From: Diadema setosum | Taxonomy: Eukaryota; Echinodermata; Echinoidea; Diadematoida; Diadematidae | Assembly: GCF_964275005.1 (NCBI RefSeq) | Contig: NC_092705.1 | Location: 24,881,630 to 24,945,629 of the forward strand | Reading direction: 5' to 3' | DNA: 64,000 nt | Shown: positions 1,233 to 60,922 of the stretch, in pieces | How positions within the stretch are numbered: position 1 is the first letter of the stretch | How the letters are laid out: each line of letters opens with the position of its first letter | Notes under the pieces: generated by a model | Databases searched by the model: none | What the model was told of the DNA's origin: nothing | The model's input: the letters and a program-made list of their open reading frames with translations, nothing else | Program-made: the position numbers and the translations under genes

Positions 1233-1370
1233 CTTGATGAGCGGCAGAACGTATTCAGACATCAGCCAATGAAAGAAATCGGCCACCAGCTGGCGCTGTT
1301 TGACAAGGGCGTTGAAGGGGGGCTGCCGCCCTGCTTTGCTCTCGAGTCGACACCAGTGACAATCTTCCAT
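1233..1370 (-). CDS. TERT: TERT exon 11 (end of TRBD)
   Basis: 46 codons running MEDCHWCRLESKAG through LVADFFHWLMSEYVLPLIK. Matches human VRDCAWLRRSPG and [22 protein letters not shown], at the border with the RT domain. Donor GTAAAT. The next expected exon, with the FYVTE-like motif, is not visible between 1232 and 1, so it lies outside the window. Confidence 0.95.
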
Positions 1371-4300
1371 CTTAAGAACATGACAGCACGAAAAAAAAAA
1401 AAAGTTCTTTCTTTTGCCTTGTGGCAAATCCTCTCACTCACTCACACAACTTGTCCTGAGCCAAGATGCAATACGAACATAGATATATAGAATTCACAGT
1501 TCATTAACATATTGATGCAGTAGTCTGGTACAATGAATGCAGGGTATACATATGCGTATGCACAAACATATAGGCATGCATTACATGTGACACTGCATCA
1601 TAATTAAGTTCAGTGATTCTAAAGCTACAAAATGAAATGATGGAGAACTCATAAAAATGGTGTGTTCCTCACCAACTGAAATAAGCAATAGATAATTCAA
1701 CTTCCAATGTTATTTTTGAGGGAAAAAAGAGGGGGTTTAGAGGTTCAGGGTCAATTTACACAAATTGGCTCCTTTACTGTGCCAAAGTAGAAATTGCGAT
1801 CAAAGCATTGGCCCTAATTTCATTCTGAAAATCATATTCACAAAGCCCAATTCTATTCATTTTTTTACAGTATCTTTACTTGTACTGCTGACTGTTCTGA
1901 CAAGTTTCTGAAGGTAGTTCAAGCTCTTCATATATATCCCATGGGCACAAAATGGAGAAAAACAATAACAGAACAAAACTACAGTGTAGAATAAACAAGT
2001 ATTACACTACTTCCACATAGTTTTGTGCATTTAAACTTCAGAACTATCGTAAGTTCAAGGATTACTTCCGACAATACTGAAAACTAAAAACAGTAGGGTT
2101 GATCCAAAATGCTAATCCTCAGGCCTACAGGGAAATTTACCCACAAGAATTTTTGTGGTTTCTGTGAGACGGGTAGCGCATAACATAAAAGCGTATAAAT
2201 GTGGTGGGTTTTAATTATAATTTTAGCTATTTCACGGCTTATTGATTTTATACCGTAAGTGCAGAGTAAATGGAGCGACAAACATTGCCATTGTTGTGGT
2301 CTTTGGGGGGTGGGGTGGGGGAGAGTGGGTATAGAGAAGAAGGTGTTCAGGCTCAGTGATCAGGATATTTTGTGTGATATCACTGGCACATTTTTAAATC
2401 ACTGCCACCAGATACCCTATGTGGCACAATCCACTGACATATATCCTGGGTCCCATTTCATAAAACTTGTTATCAGTGACAACTGCCTCATTTCTGTGAC
2501 ACATTTGCTCTTAGCCAATCAGATGCAAGGATTTCAGTAGCTTACAACAACTATAACAGCTTGTCACTGATAACAAGTTTTATGAAACAGGGCCCTGGAT
2601 GTATAGTTTTAACTCATTCTTTCACAATATGCCTGCCCTTCTTTGAAACACTTTTGAAGACAGAGACAAGTAGTGTTCATCATTCCTATCACCATTAATA
2701 TCATCATCATGTTCTATGTATTCAGCATCAATTGGGTTAAAGTCACCTTAATGTCAGCAACGAGCTGGTGAAGCGAAAGCCTCTCAAATCGACCCAAAGA
2801 AACAAACTGCCTCACACCTGAACAAAGCATAGCACACACAATAAATCAGTATTACCACATGCATGCCATATGGACCATGTGACATGAGCCGTATGGAATA
2901 TAACAAAGCTTCTACTAGCTCTACTAAATAAAACAATTGCTACTTGACTGCCCAAACTCAAAGGAAATGACTGCCACAAAATAGGGGTTGCAAACTTATA
3001 TGATCACTGTGAAGCCATAGATGGCTTAAGCGATTTGTGACAAAGAAATGTATTGGAAAACATTTGAATCTCTCATGGCAAAAGCTGCAGATAGCTCTAC
3101 AATCTTTGACAAAATTGGACACATGCGATCTTAATCCCAAATACCAGAAATATATAAGATGACAAAATATAAACCAAATCACATCATGCATGACATAAAC
3201 ACATACAACACTAAAAGTGGAAAGCTTGAATGAGTGATTGGCAGCTACACGAATGCCCAAAGAAACAGCCCAACATAGAGAGAGCTTGATGCAATATTTG
3301 GCACATGCAAAAGTATACAAAAATTTGAAGAAAAAAAATGATGACTAGAGAAGAAAATTTTAAAGAAATGAAAATTCGCACAATGTATAGAAAAAGAGAG
3401 CAAAATATCTAACCTTTCAAAAAGGCACTCCTGTTGTGAGTACTCCCCCAGAGTTCCCCTGGAACAACCGTCAAGAGGACATGACGCAGGAAGAGATACA
3501 CCTGCCATGGGCACGTCTTCATCTTGATCAGCTGGGCTGCTTGGTCTGGAAGACTCGTCCTCATTCCCTCCCGCTCTGCGGCCAGTTTCGTTCCTTGCTT
3601 GCATCTCTTTCCCTTCCCAGCCTTCACAGTCAGAGAAGTTTTAGATTCCCTTGAAGACCGCCCTCCGTTGGTCTGTGACTCACCAGATGACGAGGTTTGT
3701 CCAAAGTCCTGCTTCGTCTCTTTGAAAACTGTGTGCGCATCAGGAAAATGAACATACTTTCCTTTGGTTTCTTTGACAGATGCATTTCGATGAACAACTG
3801 AAAAGGGTACAAAATGAGATGCTTTGTGACCTTCAAAACTTGACAAACTAGGCAGAAGACTTGAAGAAGGTTTTCCTGTATCCCCCTTTTTGTTTCTATG
3901 TTCCAGACAGGAGCTGGCCACATATCTAGATGGTTGTTCAATCTGCATCACTGCCAAAACCTGTTTGCTCCATGACTTATCCAGGACTTCTGCACCCAGA
4001 TCTTGATGATCACTGTCCATTCCCTGCTGCAGGCTTGCGGCCAGCGTGCCAGTCGGCTCTCCACCCAGAGTTTTCAAAGTCCTGCCACACCTCAAAGACG
4101 CATGTTGCAACTGCCACTCTGAGCAGGATGTCTTCAATTCCTCATCAGCTTCAGTATCTTTGGTCATCATGGCTGGTGCAGCATCAAATGACCCTCGACA
4201 TTCGACAGATGTGCCGCTCCAGCAGGAGGAGCTAAGAGAGGATCCCTTTGCTTGCTGGTCTCCTAAAACTTGATGTGCTTCCCCTCGACTCCATTGCCAA

Positions 4301-7300
4301 TGTCTTCTGGATGAAACGCTGCACTGCTGATCAGGGGAAGGAGATAAAATGTCATCTGCAGCCAAGCTTTGCCCACTTGAATCTAAGAGTATTGGGGATT
4401 CCTGTGATGAAGAGACATCTTTTTTAATACTGTTTGATTCTAATTCTTCCTGAGGTGACCCTGATGACATTTCCTCCCGTTGTTCACAGCTTGGGCTCGG
4501 TGTTTCTAATTTTGGAAGATTCCTATGTGGATGATGAGTGTCTTTGCCTACAAGATTGTCATGTGCTATGCTGGCAGTGTGACGTACCTGAAGCTCAACA
4601 CCCTCTATTTGTCCCTGAGTCTCTTTCTTCTTCTGGGAGTGTGATGGAGGGTCATCTGTTTCCATAGCGATGAGAGAGGCATCCCTTGGATATGCCCTGA
4701 AGTCATCATGGGCGTGGCTCTGGCTCAGAACAACGTGCACAGTTTCGCCCCCTGGCCTTGCCTCGGCCGGTGCATCAGCCTTCACGTTAGCCCCTTGGCA
4801 GTCACGAGCTGGGGGGCGCCCTCTACGATAGAAGACATATGGAACAAAGCCAACTCCTTGGCTTTCTGACTGAAGAGTGGACAGATGAGCTGACTCTTTT
4901 ACCATTTTGTCCTTCTCCGCTGAGTCTATGCAACTGGCTTGCAACAGACTGCTGGGATCTGAGCTCTTGACCTTTGACCTTGTATGAACATCACCATCAT
5001 CATCAGGAACAGCGGTGATTGATCCTTCTGGTATGGTGATTGGACAGTGGTGATTTAGCAAGGCAGTGATGTTGACCCGTCTGGGGAAATGAAGTAATCA
5101 ACACGTCATCAGTTTTCATGTCCTAAACATGATATTTGTCTAGACACATTCACACATGAAAGTTGTAACTACTTGTACATCTCATGAAACATCAATGATA
5201 TTTACACTCCTTACTTCCATTATTATACACCATAATGGTAAATACGCAAGCAATTGATAAGTACTTTAATCATGGCTGTCGAGCTTCGACCTTTTAAGTG
5301 CCCAGGGACTTCTTCCCAAGCTTTTTCATCACCATTCAATCGTCCCTCATAAACTTAATCTAGTTGTAGATCAGCAAGTCAACTCAAAAGTAGCAATGTA
5401 CTTCCGGCCTACAGGAAGGCCATCATGATACAATAGGGATAAGATAATCTCTATTCATTGACAATTAGTGTCCAGACATCTATGCCAAGAGGAAAGGAAA
5501 GCATTCTAGCGTGCATGCATATCGGTGAACAAAGCATAGAAAGGGTTAAGTCTTCCTCTTCTTGTTTATCTTCTGTCTGGCATTGATATCACAAAAACAA
5601 AATAACAAAAATAACTGCAACATGTTTACTTACCTGTGATGCTGTAGAAAGGTCTTCACCAGTTGCTGAACTTTGATGAGACGCCTAGGGGTCCGCGACG
5701 GCTATGACACAAAACATAACAAGAAAGAAATTTAGCATTCAGTTTACAGGATGACAGAACATAGGGATATCTCATATAATTCATCAGCAATGGCAAATTA
5801 ACTTACTTTGTACTTTAGTTTAATTTCAACCAGAAGAAAAGAAAGGTTAACACATTTCTCTGCTTGTGTTTATGTTCCCTATTCTAGTGGAAAACCAATA
5901 TCAATATGGCTAACTCTTCAAAATTCCTTGCTTTACTGACTTTCTCGCAATCTTAGACATCTTTGGCTTTGGAAAATGCAGTGACTACCAAAAGAAAAGA
6001 ATCTATCAGCGTGAATGGTGTCACAGGCCAAAAAAAAAAAAAAGAAAAGAAAAAAAGAATCAGAAAATCATGTAAAAGAAAAGGAAGCAGATGGGAACAG
6101 CTATTCAAATGCGTAAAAGTCTTTCTGCTTTACCAAAACTACACATTTGTACCTAGTGAATTGCTTTTATACATTTGTGGTTGTGAAATACTTCTATACA
6201 TTTGTGGTAGAGTATAACTGGTCAATACAACCAAATACCTCTAGAAATGTGCAGGGTGCTAGAGTTCACATGCGCACTCTCCTAGAGTAGCTATACTGAC
6301 AGAGTCTCTGGCTATCCAGAAGCGCAAACTCATTTCATAATCTCCCTCATGCAACTGAACAGACAAACATGAGCTTCACAAAACTTAAGAAAAGACATCT
6401 GACACTAAAACCGAACGGGGGTAAAAAGATTGGCATTAATTTATTTCTCACCGGTTTCTTCTTCTTCTTTCTTTGTTCCCCAGCTTTCCCACCACCATTT
6501 CCATCCATCCCCTTCCAAACAACTCCTTTGATTGACGACGCACCCTGCTTGGCAACACCTGCGTTTGTGTACGAGGTGGCGCCCTCACTTGGCGAAGTGA
6601 AGATATGTTGGGTGAGTCTATGAGCCCCAGCGTTGGATGCTGCAAGTCCTGCCAGGATGCCTGGATAAGATGAATAGAACAGGCAATACATACTTTACTG
6701 GAGAAACAGAACTGTTGGAAGGGATAACATACATCATGACTCAGAAGGCATTGGTCGTAATAATATCAGCCACTCTTTCTTCATTAGTCTCTCTGAATTG
6801 CAGCTCATTTTTAAAGAAGAACATAGGTTCCAATTTTACTTTCTGTATGAAATTGTGGGAAGAAAATGTCACAGTTTGCAGAACTAGTCTTCTTTAAACT
6901 GTCAGAGCAGGATTGATTTATAATGGATGAGGACAATTTTTTGCTAGATTCTTACTCTGTTTCGGCCAGTCGCGCCCTGTCATTCTGGAGTAGCAGGCGT
7001 TCAGGATGTAGAATGCTCGTTCCAATCCTCTGACGTGCTTCAAGGCATCCGACGCACCGCCGTCTTGATTTTCCTGGAAGCCACCCTTTCTCTTCCTCCT
7101 CCCCTTCCTCTTTTTACTTGCATCCTCACCTTCAGCATATTTCCCCCGGCCATCCCGAGTGTGGTGATGATGACATGTACTCTGACGGGGCTTTGACACT
7201 TCTTCACTCCGCGGATCAATAGATCTGTCGGGACCTACCCTCCTCACTCCATCACAAGTACTGACACTCGCATCGACACCTGTTGAATCTTTACAACGGT

Positions 7301-10300
7301 GTCTCTTCGCAACACTGCCATCTCCATCTAACTGCTCCTCCCCAGATCGTTTCCTCTTCAGTGATGCCTTGAGATCGCTTGTCTCCATGGCAACTCCATC
7401 CGCTCCTGCGTGATGCAAGCCCAAGGTCGCATTCGACTTTCCTACATCACTCCTCCCAACCATCTGACGTCTTGTCACACTTTCAGGTCTCATCTTCACC
7501 TTCGCTGAATTTGTGGCTTGCATCGTCTTTCCCTGTGACTTGTGCTCTTGTGATGTCACATCTGCTATCAAAGTACTTATTGGTGCACCTGAGATGAACA
7601 GATCACATGACATAAAAACAACAAAAGCTTTTGACAGATGTTTTAAACAAATTTATGCACATGCCTGGTAATCAAAGTATAATTTGTTGGATACTTGGGT
7701 GACAAATAAAATTTAGGCTTTTCTTGTATCTTTTCCTTCATGCTTTTCATGTAAACATGAAAAGCATGGACAAACAAAAAGTAGAGTAAAATCATATTTT
7801 GTAAGAGCATCATTCTTGATAATGTTACTCAGGTCATAACAGTAAGGTTTTAACCCTACACAGAAATTATATCACCTTATTGCTAAGAGTGGCATTTAGC
7901 CACACACTGTGTGATTTGAGGTTTATTTGCAATCCTTTTTCAAAGCTCCTCACAGTATGGATGCAAATTACAGCAGTCTAATCAGTTAGCATTGATGTAT
8001 GTGCAATGGAAGACCAAACAGATATTAAATAGTGGCCTACTGAAAGAGATGGCAATTTTTGTAAAAGCAAGCAGAAACATTGAGTATGCACTGCGGGGGG
8101 GGGGGGGGGGGATGATTTCATTCCATTTACAGAAAAACGGAGAAAAAACAAACAAACTTGGTCTGATATCGTGCAAACGAGCGACTCACCTGTCAACTGA
8201 ATGTAACAGGATGGAGGGGCTGCAATGAATACTGATAGGTTTTCCAAGAGGTACATCATTAACTCATCCCCAATCCTATGGAACAGGCAGAAATTAACAT
8301 GCCAATATTATTGACTGTACCCTAGACCAAGCATTACACATTTTATCATAATAGTTTTATAAACTCAAAAATAGTTCAGCAAGCAGTTGTAATCTTTTGC
8401 AACAAACATTGAAGAATCTCAAACACATGCAAATATATCTTAGGTTCAAATCAAAAGATGATAGAATCAACTTCACCTCTGGACTGACAGGACTTTTCAC
8501 TTACATTCAAACTCCTTTTGTAAGTCTGAAATACTGACCGGCATTGAGCAGGATATCATCGGAATATTAACTGGTATCAAGGGGATATCATTAGAATATT
8601 GACTGGCATTGAGCAGGATATCATCAGGATATTGACTAAGTATAGTTATCATTAGAATATTGACTGGTGTTGAGGGGGATATCACAATATTAGAGACTGG
8701 ACTTGAGGGAGATATCATTATACCGTGCAGGAGGGACGATCATTACACATGGCTATGAGTTGATTGCAACATATGGCCCAGGTAGGGCAAAAGATTTTCT
8801 GAGTCAGTATCATCATTCTCATTCTTCAAATCATGTGTGCTTTGAGCTGAAGTAGGGGAGCACTGACGAGCGGTGTTTGTTTCTTGTTGTTGTTTGTTTA
8901 TTGGTTTTTGGTTTTCTTTTAATAGTATCATGGCCTCTTTCTATATGTGACCTTGCATCACAAAACAAACAAAAAGTCGCAACCCTTGATTTTACGCGAG
9001 GACTCAAAAAAGGTGAATTGGGCAACCGAGTCAATTTTGTAGTTGTTTCTCTTTTCTTTTTCTTTTTTGAAAGGGCTATCCTTCTAGATTATTCTGTAGT
9101 TTGGGATCATAACATGAATGGGAAAGTGTGTTTTCAGCAGTTTTTCTACAACCCTTTTCTGGAGGAGAGTAGAATGATCAGGTACGTCTTAGAGGCCCCT
9201 TTTCATTTTTTGAAATCCTTTGCAAAATCTTCACTTTCAAGTCTAATAACTCTTGAAAGGATATTGCTACTGCTTTGAAAGTTGGCATTAATCATGGACA
9301 GAATGTGTTAACAGAACATGTTCAATTTCAGCTTAATCTCATAATCTCTTCATTGTTGTTGCTCTGGTGGTTTACATCCTGTGTTTTGTCCCTTCCATCA
9401 CACAGCTAGCACATCTTGGTAAAGATTAAATGCTTGAATAGACCCTGTACTTCAGAGTCTCTTTTCTCAGTTCACACTTTTCCAGAGTGTGTGCTTTCTT
9501 GGCAGCATTTAGGTAGGTTTATATGGGAGTCCATATGAATTGAGTTATACATCATTTTAAAGCTTAGGGTCTGTTCTTTCAGAATCTGCCTTTAACAAAA
9601 AATCCATGTCTGGCGACTTTTGTTGGTTTTGTGATGCAGGGTCACATATGATGCAAAGGTATGCCAGATATCATTTAACAAAATATTCCCTCTCCCATCA
9701 GTAAAAGCATATCCATAACTGTGGTGCATTGGATAAGGGCATACTCCCAAGTGGATGTTTATTTTGTAATATGTTGTTAGTTTGCTTATTTCAATTGGTT
9801 TCCTTGGGATGTTTACTACGGCTCAATTTTCATCTCATCTATTAAAGTCTTTACTGAATGAAAACAAAAGATTATCAAAGCAGAGAGGTGAAGATGTGCT
9901 ATGAAAGATTTTAATCAGTTGCCTTCCTGAGTTTGTACAAATGTATTTGTAAGATTGCAACTGCTGATCTATATTTCAACAAACATGTCGGCAAAAGGAA
10001 CCAGTGGGAATCGAACCTGTCATCTACTGCTTTCCCGGAAGCGACACTACCACCTGCAGGCAACCCCTGGTTGCCAGCAGTGACACAGTAAACTTGGAAC
10101 AAATACCCAGGCTCTGAAATTCTGACATTGAAATGCTAAGCAATCCATGGCAGACGAGGCTTATTGAATGAAATCAAGAGATTACTAAAGCAGAGGGGTG
10201 AAGAAGATGTGCTATGAAAGATTTCGATCTTCTTCATTGTCACTGCTCACCTGCTGAGGAGCTTACCCCAGTAGGGGGTTCTGAGCTGAATACTATTGTT

Positions 10301-59746: not shown

Positions 59747-60922
59747 TTGTATTTGCGTATACGTCAATATTTTATTTTATGTTATGATATATCCGACCAT
59801 TTACCGATATTCATTATTCTTCGTTATTCTGAAAACGTCAAAAGTATTTCAAAACCCAGGCCAATAATGTACAGAAAAGGATCAGACGAGAATATTGAAT
59901 TACTTAATTCTGACTTAGCGAAGGAAGAATGGCAAGAAGTGTATCTCCAAAATAACGCCGATAAAGCTTATGACATTTTCCTAGATAAACTTTTATATTA
60001 TTATCGAAAAAACATTTCTTTAGTTAAAAAAAAAAACACACGTAGAAAGAACAAACATCCCTGGATTACAAAGGGAATCATCAATTCAATAAAAACCCGT
60101 AATAAATTGTACAAACTGGCGATTACTACCCACAATATAAAACATTTTACCGATTACAAAAAATATAGAAATATACTCAGTAACTTGATTCGTATTTCTC
60201 GTAAAATGTATTATTCTGATAAGTTTGATAATCAAAAGGATAACGTAAATGGCTTATGGGAAACTATATATGAAATAACAGGTAAAAATAATAAGGAAAC
60301 ATCGTCCGTTTTTTATAATGACAACAAAGAACTCACAAACCCTGATGAAATATCTAAGGCTTTTAACTCATACTTTGTAAATATTGGCCCCCAATTAGCT
60401 TCAAAAATAAAAAAAAACAAACATGTTCATTTAAACTTTACTGAATTTCTTCCACCAAACTGCGACAAATCGCTTTTCTTTACCCCAACAGATGAGGAAG
60501 AAATACTGGAGATTGTTAACAGATTAAAGCCAAGTAGATCTAGTGGCCATGATGAAATAAGTGTTTATATACTAAAGAAAATCATCAAACAAATAACTAC
60601 ACCTTTATCCTACATTTTCAATCTTTCACTGTCTTCTGGAATATGCCCAAACTCATTAAAAATTGCGAAAGTATTACCTAGTATTTCTAAAATTCTGGAA
60701 AAAATTATTCATATACGCCTGTACATTTTTCTTCATGTAAATGACCTACTTATACCTAATCAGTTTGGATTTAGAAAGGGTCATTCCACCGATTTAGCAA
60801 TTATTCAATTGTTAGATAAGATTACTGAATCTTTTGCAAATAAAAAACAACTTATAGGAATTTTCATGGATTTATCAAAGGCTTTTTATACCATAGATCA
60901 TGATATATTAATTTACAAATGA
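59747..60922 (+). pseudogene. LINE endonuclease-end and RT N-terminal part
   Basis: 391-codon open frame, the longest in the element. SDHLPIF marks the endonuclease C-terminus. SSGHDEISVYILK and GFRKGHST are RT motifs. SKAFYTIDH lacks the motif A catalytic Asp. Ends at TGA, after which the same frame continues KRYGIRGLALSWIIDYLSNR. Confidence 0.9.

Follow-up and report, generated by a model that had tools for sequence, protein, structure and literature searches.

A linker of about 500 residues, probably translated, between the CP and QFP motifs of TERT in the sea urchin Diadema setosum

Telomerase reverse transcriptase (TERT) is an otherwise conserved protein, and the locus described here raises the question of how some 500 residues come to stand between the CP and QFP motifs of its telomerase RNA-binding domain (TRBD), and whether they are translated. 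The window analyzed, a stretch of 64,000 nucleotides (nt) from the sea urchin Diadema setosum (assembly GCF_964275005.1, contig NC_092705.1, positions 24,881,630 to 24,945,629), carries a TERT gene on its minus strand, and one long exon of this gene runs from the CP (v-III) motif to the QFP motif; positions given below are those of the window. Linker L3, the segment between the two motifs, is probably genuine and translated. It belongs to an apparently intact TERT gene found once in the genome, has grown to about 500 residues, and most likely forms a weakly constrained, largely disordered loop. It lies in a single open exon that is in phase with its neighbors, conserved motifs stand at both sides, and no other copy was found in the genome.

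The consulted parts of PMC3546421 define three TERT linkers, L1 to L3, which are variable in length and sequence, with L3 reaching from motif v-III to QFP, and group the TERTs of 28 metazoan species by cumulative linker length: long linkers are reported there for marsupials, sauropsids, a shark, and a sea urchin, and short ones for eutherians and ray-finned fish. The same parts, citing Wells et al. 2009, describe extremely long linker regions for the TERT of Strongylocentrotus purpuratus (SpuL and SpuS), a protein that keeps all 11 canonical motifs according to the consulted parts of PMC5405514. Since long sea urchin TERT linkers were thus on record in PMC3546421, the general phenomenon was already known. 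The length of L3 alone was not found for any echinoderm in the consulted parts of the literature on TERT linkers, and such a value may still be published.

Results

The long exon and the linker within it are the following.

3414..5080, minus strand: exon with the end of the CP motif, the 508-residue linker L3, and the QFP motif (splice edges, open frame, QFP matches).
3514..5037, minus strand: linker L3 itself, exon-translation residues 15-522 (an AlphaFold2 model places a few strand residues and a single short helix in it).

A first-pass annotation of this DNA had proposed one minus-strand exon at these coordinates, reaching from the CP counterpart to the QFP counterpart with about 500 residues between them against fewer than 40 in human, and both the coordinates and the splice edges proved to be right. 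The acceptor at 5080 reads CTTCATTTCCCCAG then A (10.2 bits) and the donor at 3414 reads AAG then GTTAGA (6.8 bits), these and all later splice-site scores being computed with hand-entered matrices. The surrounding open frame spans 5097..3409 (562 amino acids), and the exon proper comprises 555 codons, with NHHCPI at exon residue 9 and CPWQVY at residue 523, leaving 508 residues between them. This single linker is far longer than its human counterpart, in which 38 residues (419-456, counted from V419 in an alignment to the human TERT structure 7qxa) lie in the place of L3; with three further residues that we presume to belong there, the human total comes to about 41. Having taken human TERT as its sole comparison, the annotation had overlooked the long sea urchin linkers described above.

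The same annotation had noted an uninterrupted frame, and this too held: the exon frame contains no stop codon, compared with 33 and 25 in the other two frames of the same strand. When the middle 1480 nt were shuffled with dinucleotide content preserved (n = 2000, 6000 frames), the mean was 18.3 stops per frame, the minimum was 6, and none of the 6000 frames was open, which rules out a chance open frame over 5080-3414. The period-3 signal over L3 was 8.13, above both the 95% point (3.28) and the maximum (7.24) of null windows, which were 1515 nt long and started every 500 nt from position 9501 of the window onward. The signal was uneven along L3; six of ten overlapping 300-nt windows exceeded the 95% point (2.39) and none exceeded the 99% point (5.52) of a null of 162 windows. 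Translation, which had been argued from the intact frame, is therefore well supported by stop counts, junction phase, and period-3 signal; what does not follow from the open frame alone is the retention of the whole stretch in the mRNA, given the in-frame 186-nt candidate intron inside it that is considered below.

The QFP end of the exon matched human TERT (7qxa 419-489, E 3e-6) and the family profile PF12009 (E 2.1e-4; 21.9 bits, below the cut-off of 25). Two stretches of the spliced protein aligned collinearly with the medaka TRBD (4o26), residues 279-319 with chain positions 50-90 and residues 817-928 with 99-209, of which the QFP-T side scored 85 bits and the CP side weakly, at 5.1 bits (independent E 46); the CP side also weakly matched the fugu TRBD (4lmo 60-99; 13.1 bits, whole-sequence E 0.44). 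The CP side, weak as it is, and the QFP-T side match these fish domains in the same order, whereas the spacing differs greatly: 8 residues separate the flanking matches in medaka 4o26 and 19 in fugu 4lmo, solved constructs that may have been shortened, against 497 here (medaka comparison).

From right to left, the exons of the gene in the window are the end of the TEN domain, L1, L2, a 68-nt exon, the long exon 5080-3414, a 71-nt exon, and the T-motif exon. Those not yet listed are given below.

8190..8307, minus strand: end part of the TERT TEN-domain exon (IGDELMMYLLENLSVFIAAPPSCYIQLTG); donor after 8190 placed by eye, 5' edge unset.
6956..7588, minus strand: L1 linker exon (TEN to TRBD), 633 nt, with Lys/Arg-rich runs; open frame, acceptor 9.4 bits, donor 5.4 bits.
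6452..6660, minus strand: L2 linker exon, 209 nt; acceptor 8.9 bits, junctions in phase.
5634..5701, minus strand: 68-nt exon with the first half of the CP (v-III) motif; junctions in phase, weak spliced-piece alignment to 4o26 50-90 and 4lmo 60-99.
2747..2817, minus strand: exon after QFP (VRQFVSLGRFERLSLHQLVADIK), 71 nt; in phase, within the 85-bit 4o26 match.
1233..1370, minus strand: T-motif exon, 138 nt; PF12009 E 1.4e-7, and 30.3 bits in the genome search, above the cut-off.

Splicing at consensus sites joins six exons, L1 through T, into 929 stop-free residues that end in phase. A TRBD with QFP and T motifs is indicated by the PF12009 matches to the T motif and, below the cut-off, to QFP, and by the match to 4o26 (E 2.2e-24). 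A TEN domain is indicated by the end part of its profile (PF11474, TEN_TERT; E 8.8e-5; 23.2 bits, below the cut-off of 25), the match being confined to profile positions 101-147 of 156; the exons coding for earlier parts of TEN were not located. Farther along the gene, within the next 20 kb downstream and outside the window, VDIEKCYD and RLIDDF were seen by eye, without a model search, in open frames; we take them to be reverse transcriptase motifs A and C, respectively. Searching the genome with PF12009 returned this TERT gene alone (one match; 10 candidates scored). The homology of the L2 exon was judged by eye against the human sequence, and L2 seems longer here than what we take to be its human length. 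L1 (6956-7588) and L2 (6452-6660), both on the minus strand, carry dense basic runs (KKRKGRRKRKGG, RKKKKKP), which may serve in nuclear or nucleolar targeting or in contacts with RNA. Slightly upstream of the located TEN exon, on the 5' side with respect to the gene strand, lies a 33-nt tandem repeat (3.3 copies, 8530-8637).

The composition of L3 is less unusual than its length. It contains 14.6% Ser and has an ordinary complexity of 4.03 bits, with just two short Ser-rich patches in which the 12-mer entropy falls below 2.2 bits; low complexity, which had been ascribed to the stretch, is thereby ruled out. The expectation that L3 would be a disordered domain received moderate support. FoldIndex was -0.018 for L3 overall and ranged from -0.26 to 0.15 along the exon, and the mean raw TOP-IDP value was 0.195. 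An AlphaFold2 model made without an alignment, which as a single-sequence model is weak evidence for disorder, gave L3 blocks a pLDDT of 28-46 (one block, 54) and nearly no secondary structure, the short helix being placed at residues 512-518; in the same model the QFP region formed helices, with values of 68 and 71 for its two best blocks. Scanned against Pfam with E values of up to 1 admitted, the exon gave no family besides the QFP match. Among 15 hand-entered short-motif patterns none was clearly enriched in L3; W.W occurred once, as was matched in 70 of 2000 shuffles, and RGG was absent.

Discussion

Several observations weigh against L3 being, over its full length, a translated and disordered linker. 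Four of the ten 300-nt windows lay at or below the period-3 95% point, and residues 251-350 showed no such signal (1.05). FoldIndex is near zero, so that the scales lean only weakly to disorder, and 7 of 21 windows were positive, that is, toward order (two of these at the conserved ends). An internal splice pair at 4587-4402, read from the sequence, could shorten the protein. Finally, the in-frame synonymous codon score of L3 (-0.142) fell below that of its own mononucleotide shuffles (-0.028) and below those of its other two frames (0.069 and -0.002), and its GC content at third codon positions (GC3) was 0.43, compared with 0.68 in the conserved TERT exons.

The codon result needs to be set beside that of other exons. 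The conserved TERT exons (352 codons) scored 0.325, a mean of 0.279 was obtained for 29 kinase exons from this genome, and L3 stood above the noncoding mean (-0.294). The L1 linker exon was intermediate, with a score of -0.06 and a GC3 of 0.495, and there, too, the true frame was not the best of the three, so that the codon test appears poor at recognizing linkers. Because it gives L3 no support and misses the L1 linker as well, we did not use it to decide on translation. Codon bias seems to be tied to conserved residues, as the low GC3 of L3 and L1 suggests; most simply, preferred codons would accompany residues under conservation and so be scarce in linkers.

The great length of L3 and a codon usage unlike that of the conserved exons are what a recent foreign insertion into the exon, either a mobile element or a duplicated domain, would also produce. 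The exon matched only itself in DNA and protein searches of the 912.7-Mb genome (best candidates scored), however, no direct repeats of at least 14 nt were present in 3300-5800, and the codon pattern of L3 is partly shared by the L1 linker. With no second match among the best candidates scored and no direct repeats, we rejected this origin as very improbable.

Shortening by splicing deserves more weight, and its best candidate is the following.

4402..4587, minus strand: candidate internal intron that keeps the frame (exitron), 186 nt, covering residues 165-226, from a CAG to GTACGT donor (9.3 bits) to a TCTCTTCATCACAG to G acceptor (11.1 bits).

On this view, part of the stretch would be removed as an intron, or as an exitron under alternative splicing, leaving a shorter linker or two isoforms. 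We hold this to be rather unlikely, and it can coexist with a translated linker. The acceptor of the pair is stronger than that of the exon itself. The best in-frame pair of a shuffled sequence reached the same summed strength in 31 of 1000 trials when codons were permuted and in 32 of 1000 when dinucleotide content was preserved; with a chance level near 3%, the pair is weak evidence. The 186-nt piece has a GC content of 0.425 and a synonymous score of -0.415, with lower scores in 46 of 443 L3 windows, but it is free of stops in the exon frame, a property that only 67 of 1559 equally long noncoding windows share. A still stronger donor, CTG then GTGAGT at 3683 (10.3 bits), had no in-frame partner among the pairs listed, and its strength was equaled in 155 and 210 of 1000 shuffles. 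The consulted parts of PMC3546421 name SpuL and SpuS as published long and short forms of the sea urchin TERT. Removal of the exitron would nevertheless cost just 62 of the 508 residues, and removal of most of L3 would need weaker sites: either 4994 to 3797 (donor 4.9 bits, acceptor 7.6 bits), which would take out 399 residues, or a junction from the upstream exon to an acceptor at 3847 (4.3 bits), which would take out 411.

If L3 is translated and disordered, as we favor, the helical RNA-binding domain would be expected to fold as in other animals, with L3 leaving the surface of the TRBD as a loop, its two ends kept close to each other by the CP and QFP helices; we propose that the length of L3 is tolerated because its ends are held in this way. 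The sequence of such a loop may be only weakly constrained, and its job, if any, would most likely be regulatory (modification or docking of a partner) and not in the catalytic core.

A different role, as a lineage-specific RNA- or protein-binding element coadapted to an echinoderm telomerase RNA that has eCR4/5 and lacks the vertebrate CR4/5, appears improbable to us. The consulted parts of PMC8480181 report that eCR4/5 stands in place of CR4/5 in echinoderm telomerase RNAs, and its authors presume coevolution with the TRBD; the same source finds eCR4/5 in protostomes as well, which speaks against a link confined to this lineage. L3 does lie between two TRBD motifs, and its residues 486-498 (KAGKGKRCKQGTK), shortly ahead of QFP, are basic, but it contains no domain, no clearly enriched motif, and no RGG, and it is slightly acidic overall, with a net charge of -7. 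Nor was a telomerase RNA found for comparison in this genome by an RF00024 search: the sole match (23 bits, E 0.31, against a gathering score of 70) was dropped, having the look of a simple repeat and no visible template, and weak RF00024 matches also arose in 5 of 14 control genomes. At gathering scores, Rfam models found nothing within the window. It would be more surprising still, and we think it very doubtful, if L3 were a functional alternatively spliced element that replaces part of the contact lost in the change from CR4/5 to eCR4/5, with the exitron as the switch from one TERT form to the other.

Within TERT, it is the TRBD that grips telomerase RNA, and a loop of 500 residues separating two motifs of this domain would show how much length the fold tolerates. 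As the element of the RNA bound by the TRBD has itself changed in echinoderms, comparison of L3 across echinoderm classes bears on whether protein and RNA changed jointly.

Among known TERTs, the vertebrate L3 occupies the same place, between v-III/CP and QFP, in the consulted parts of PMC3546421; according to the same parts, exon 2 of vertebrates passes through a variable linker before it ends within the TRBD, whereas L1, L2, and L3 are in separate exons here. The S. purpuratus TERT described there resembles the present one in its very long linkers; it is represented by the SpuL and SpuS forms, whereas one TERT locus was found here. The 508-residue L3 is thus for the most part an extreme case of the long-linker pattern already reported, which it extends.

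Other loci in the window and genome

On the plus strand of the window, an open frame of 391 residues (59747-60919) matched the reverse transcriptase family PF00078 (E 4.1e-10) and had no solved-structure match at E 0.01; it is probably a retroelement unrelated to TERT. Elsewhere in the genome, kinase-like open frames were clustered, with at least 16 at C7:18505386-18728875 and at least 6 at C2:17776755-17839522, apparently as tandem arrays. The sperm sodium-proton exchanger gene of this genome was identical at 218 of 248 residues, over four aligned stretches, to a solved protein that is presumably that of S. purpuratus, a degree of identity in keeping with an echinoid distinct from S. purpuratus.

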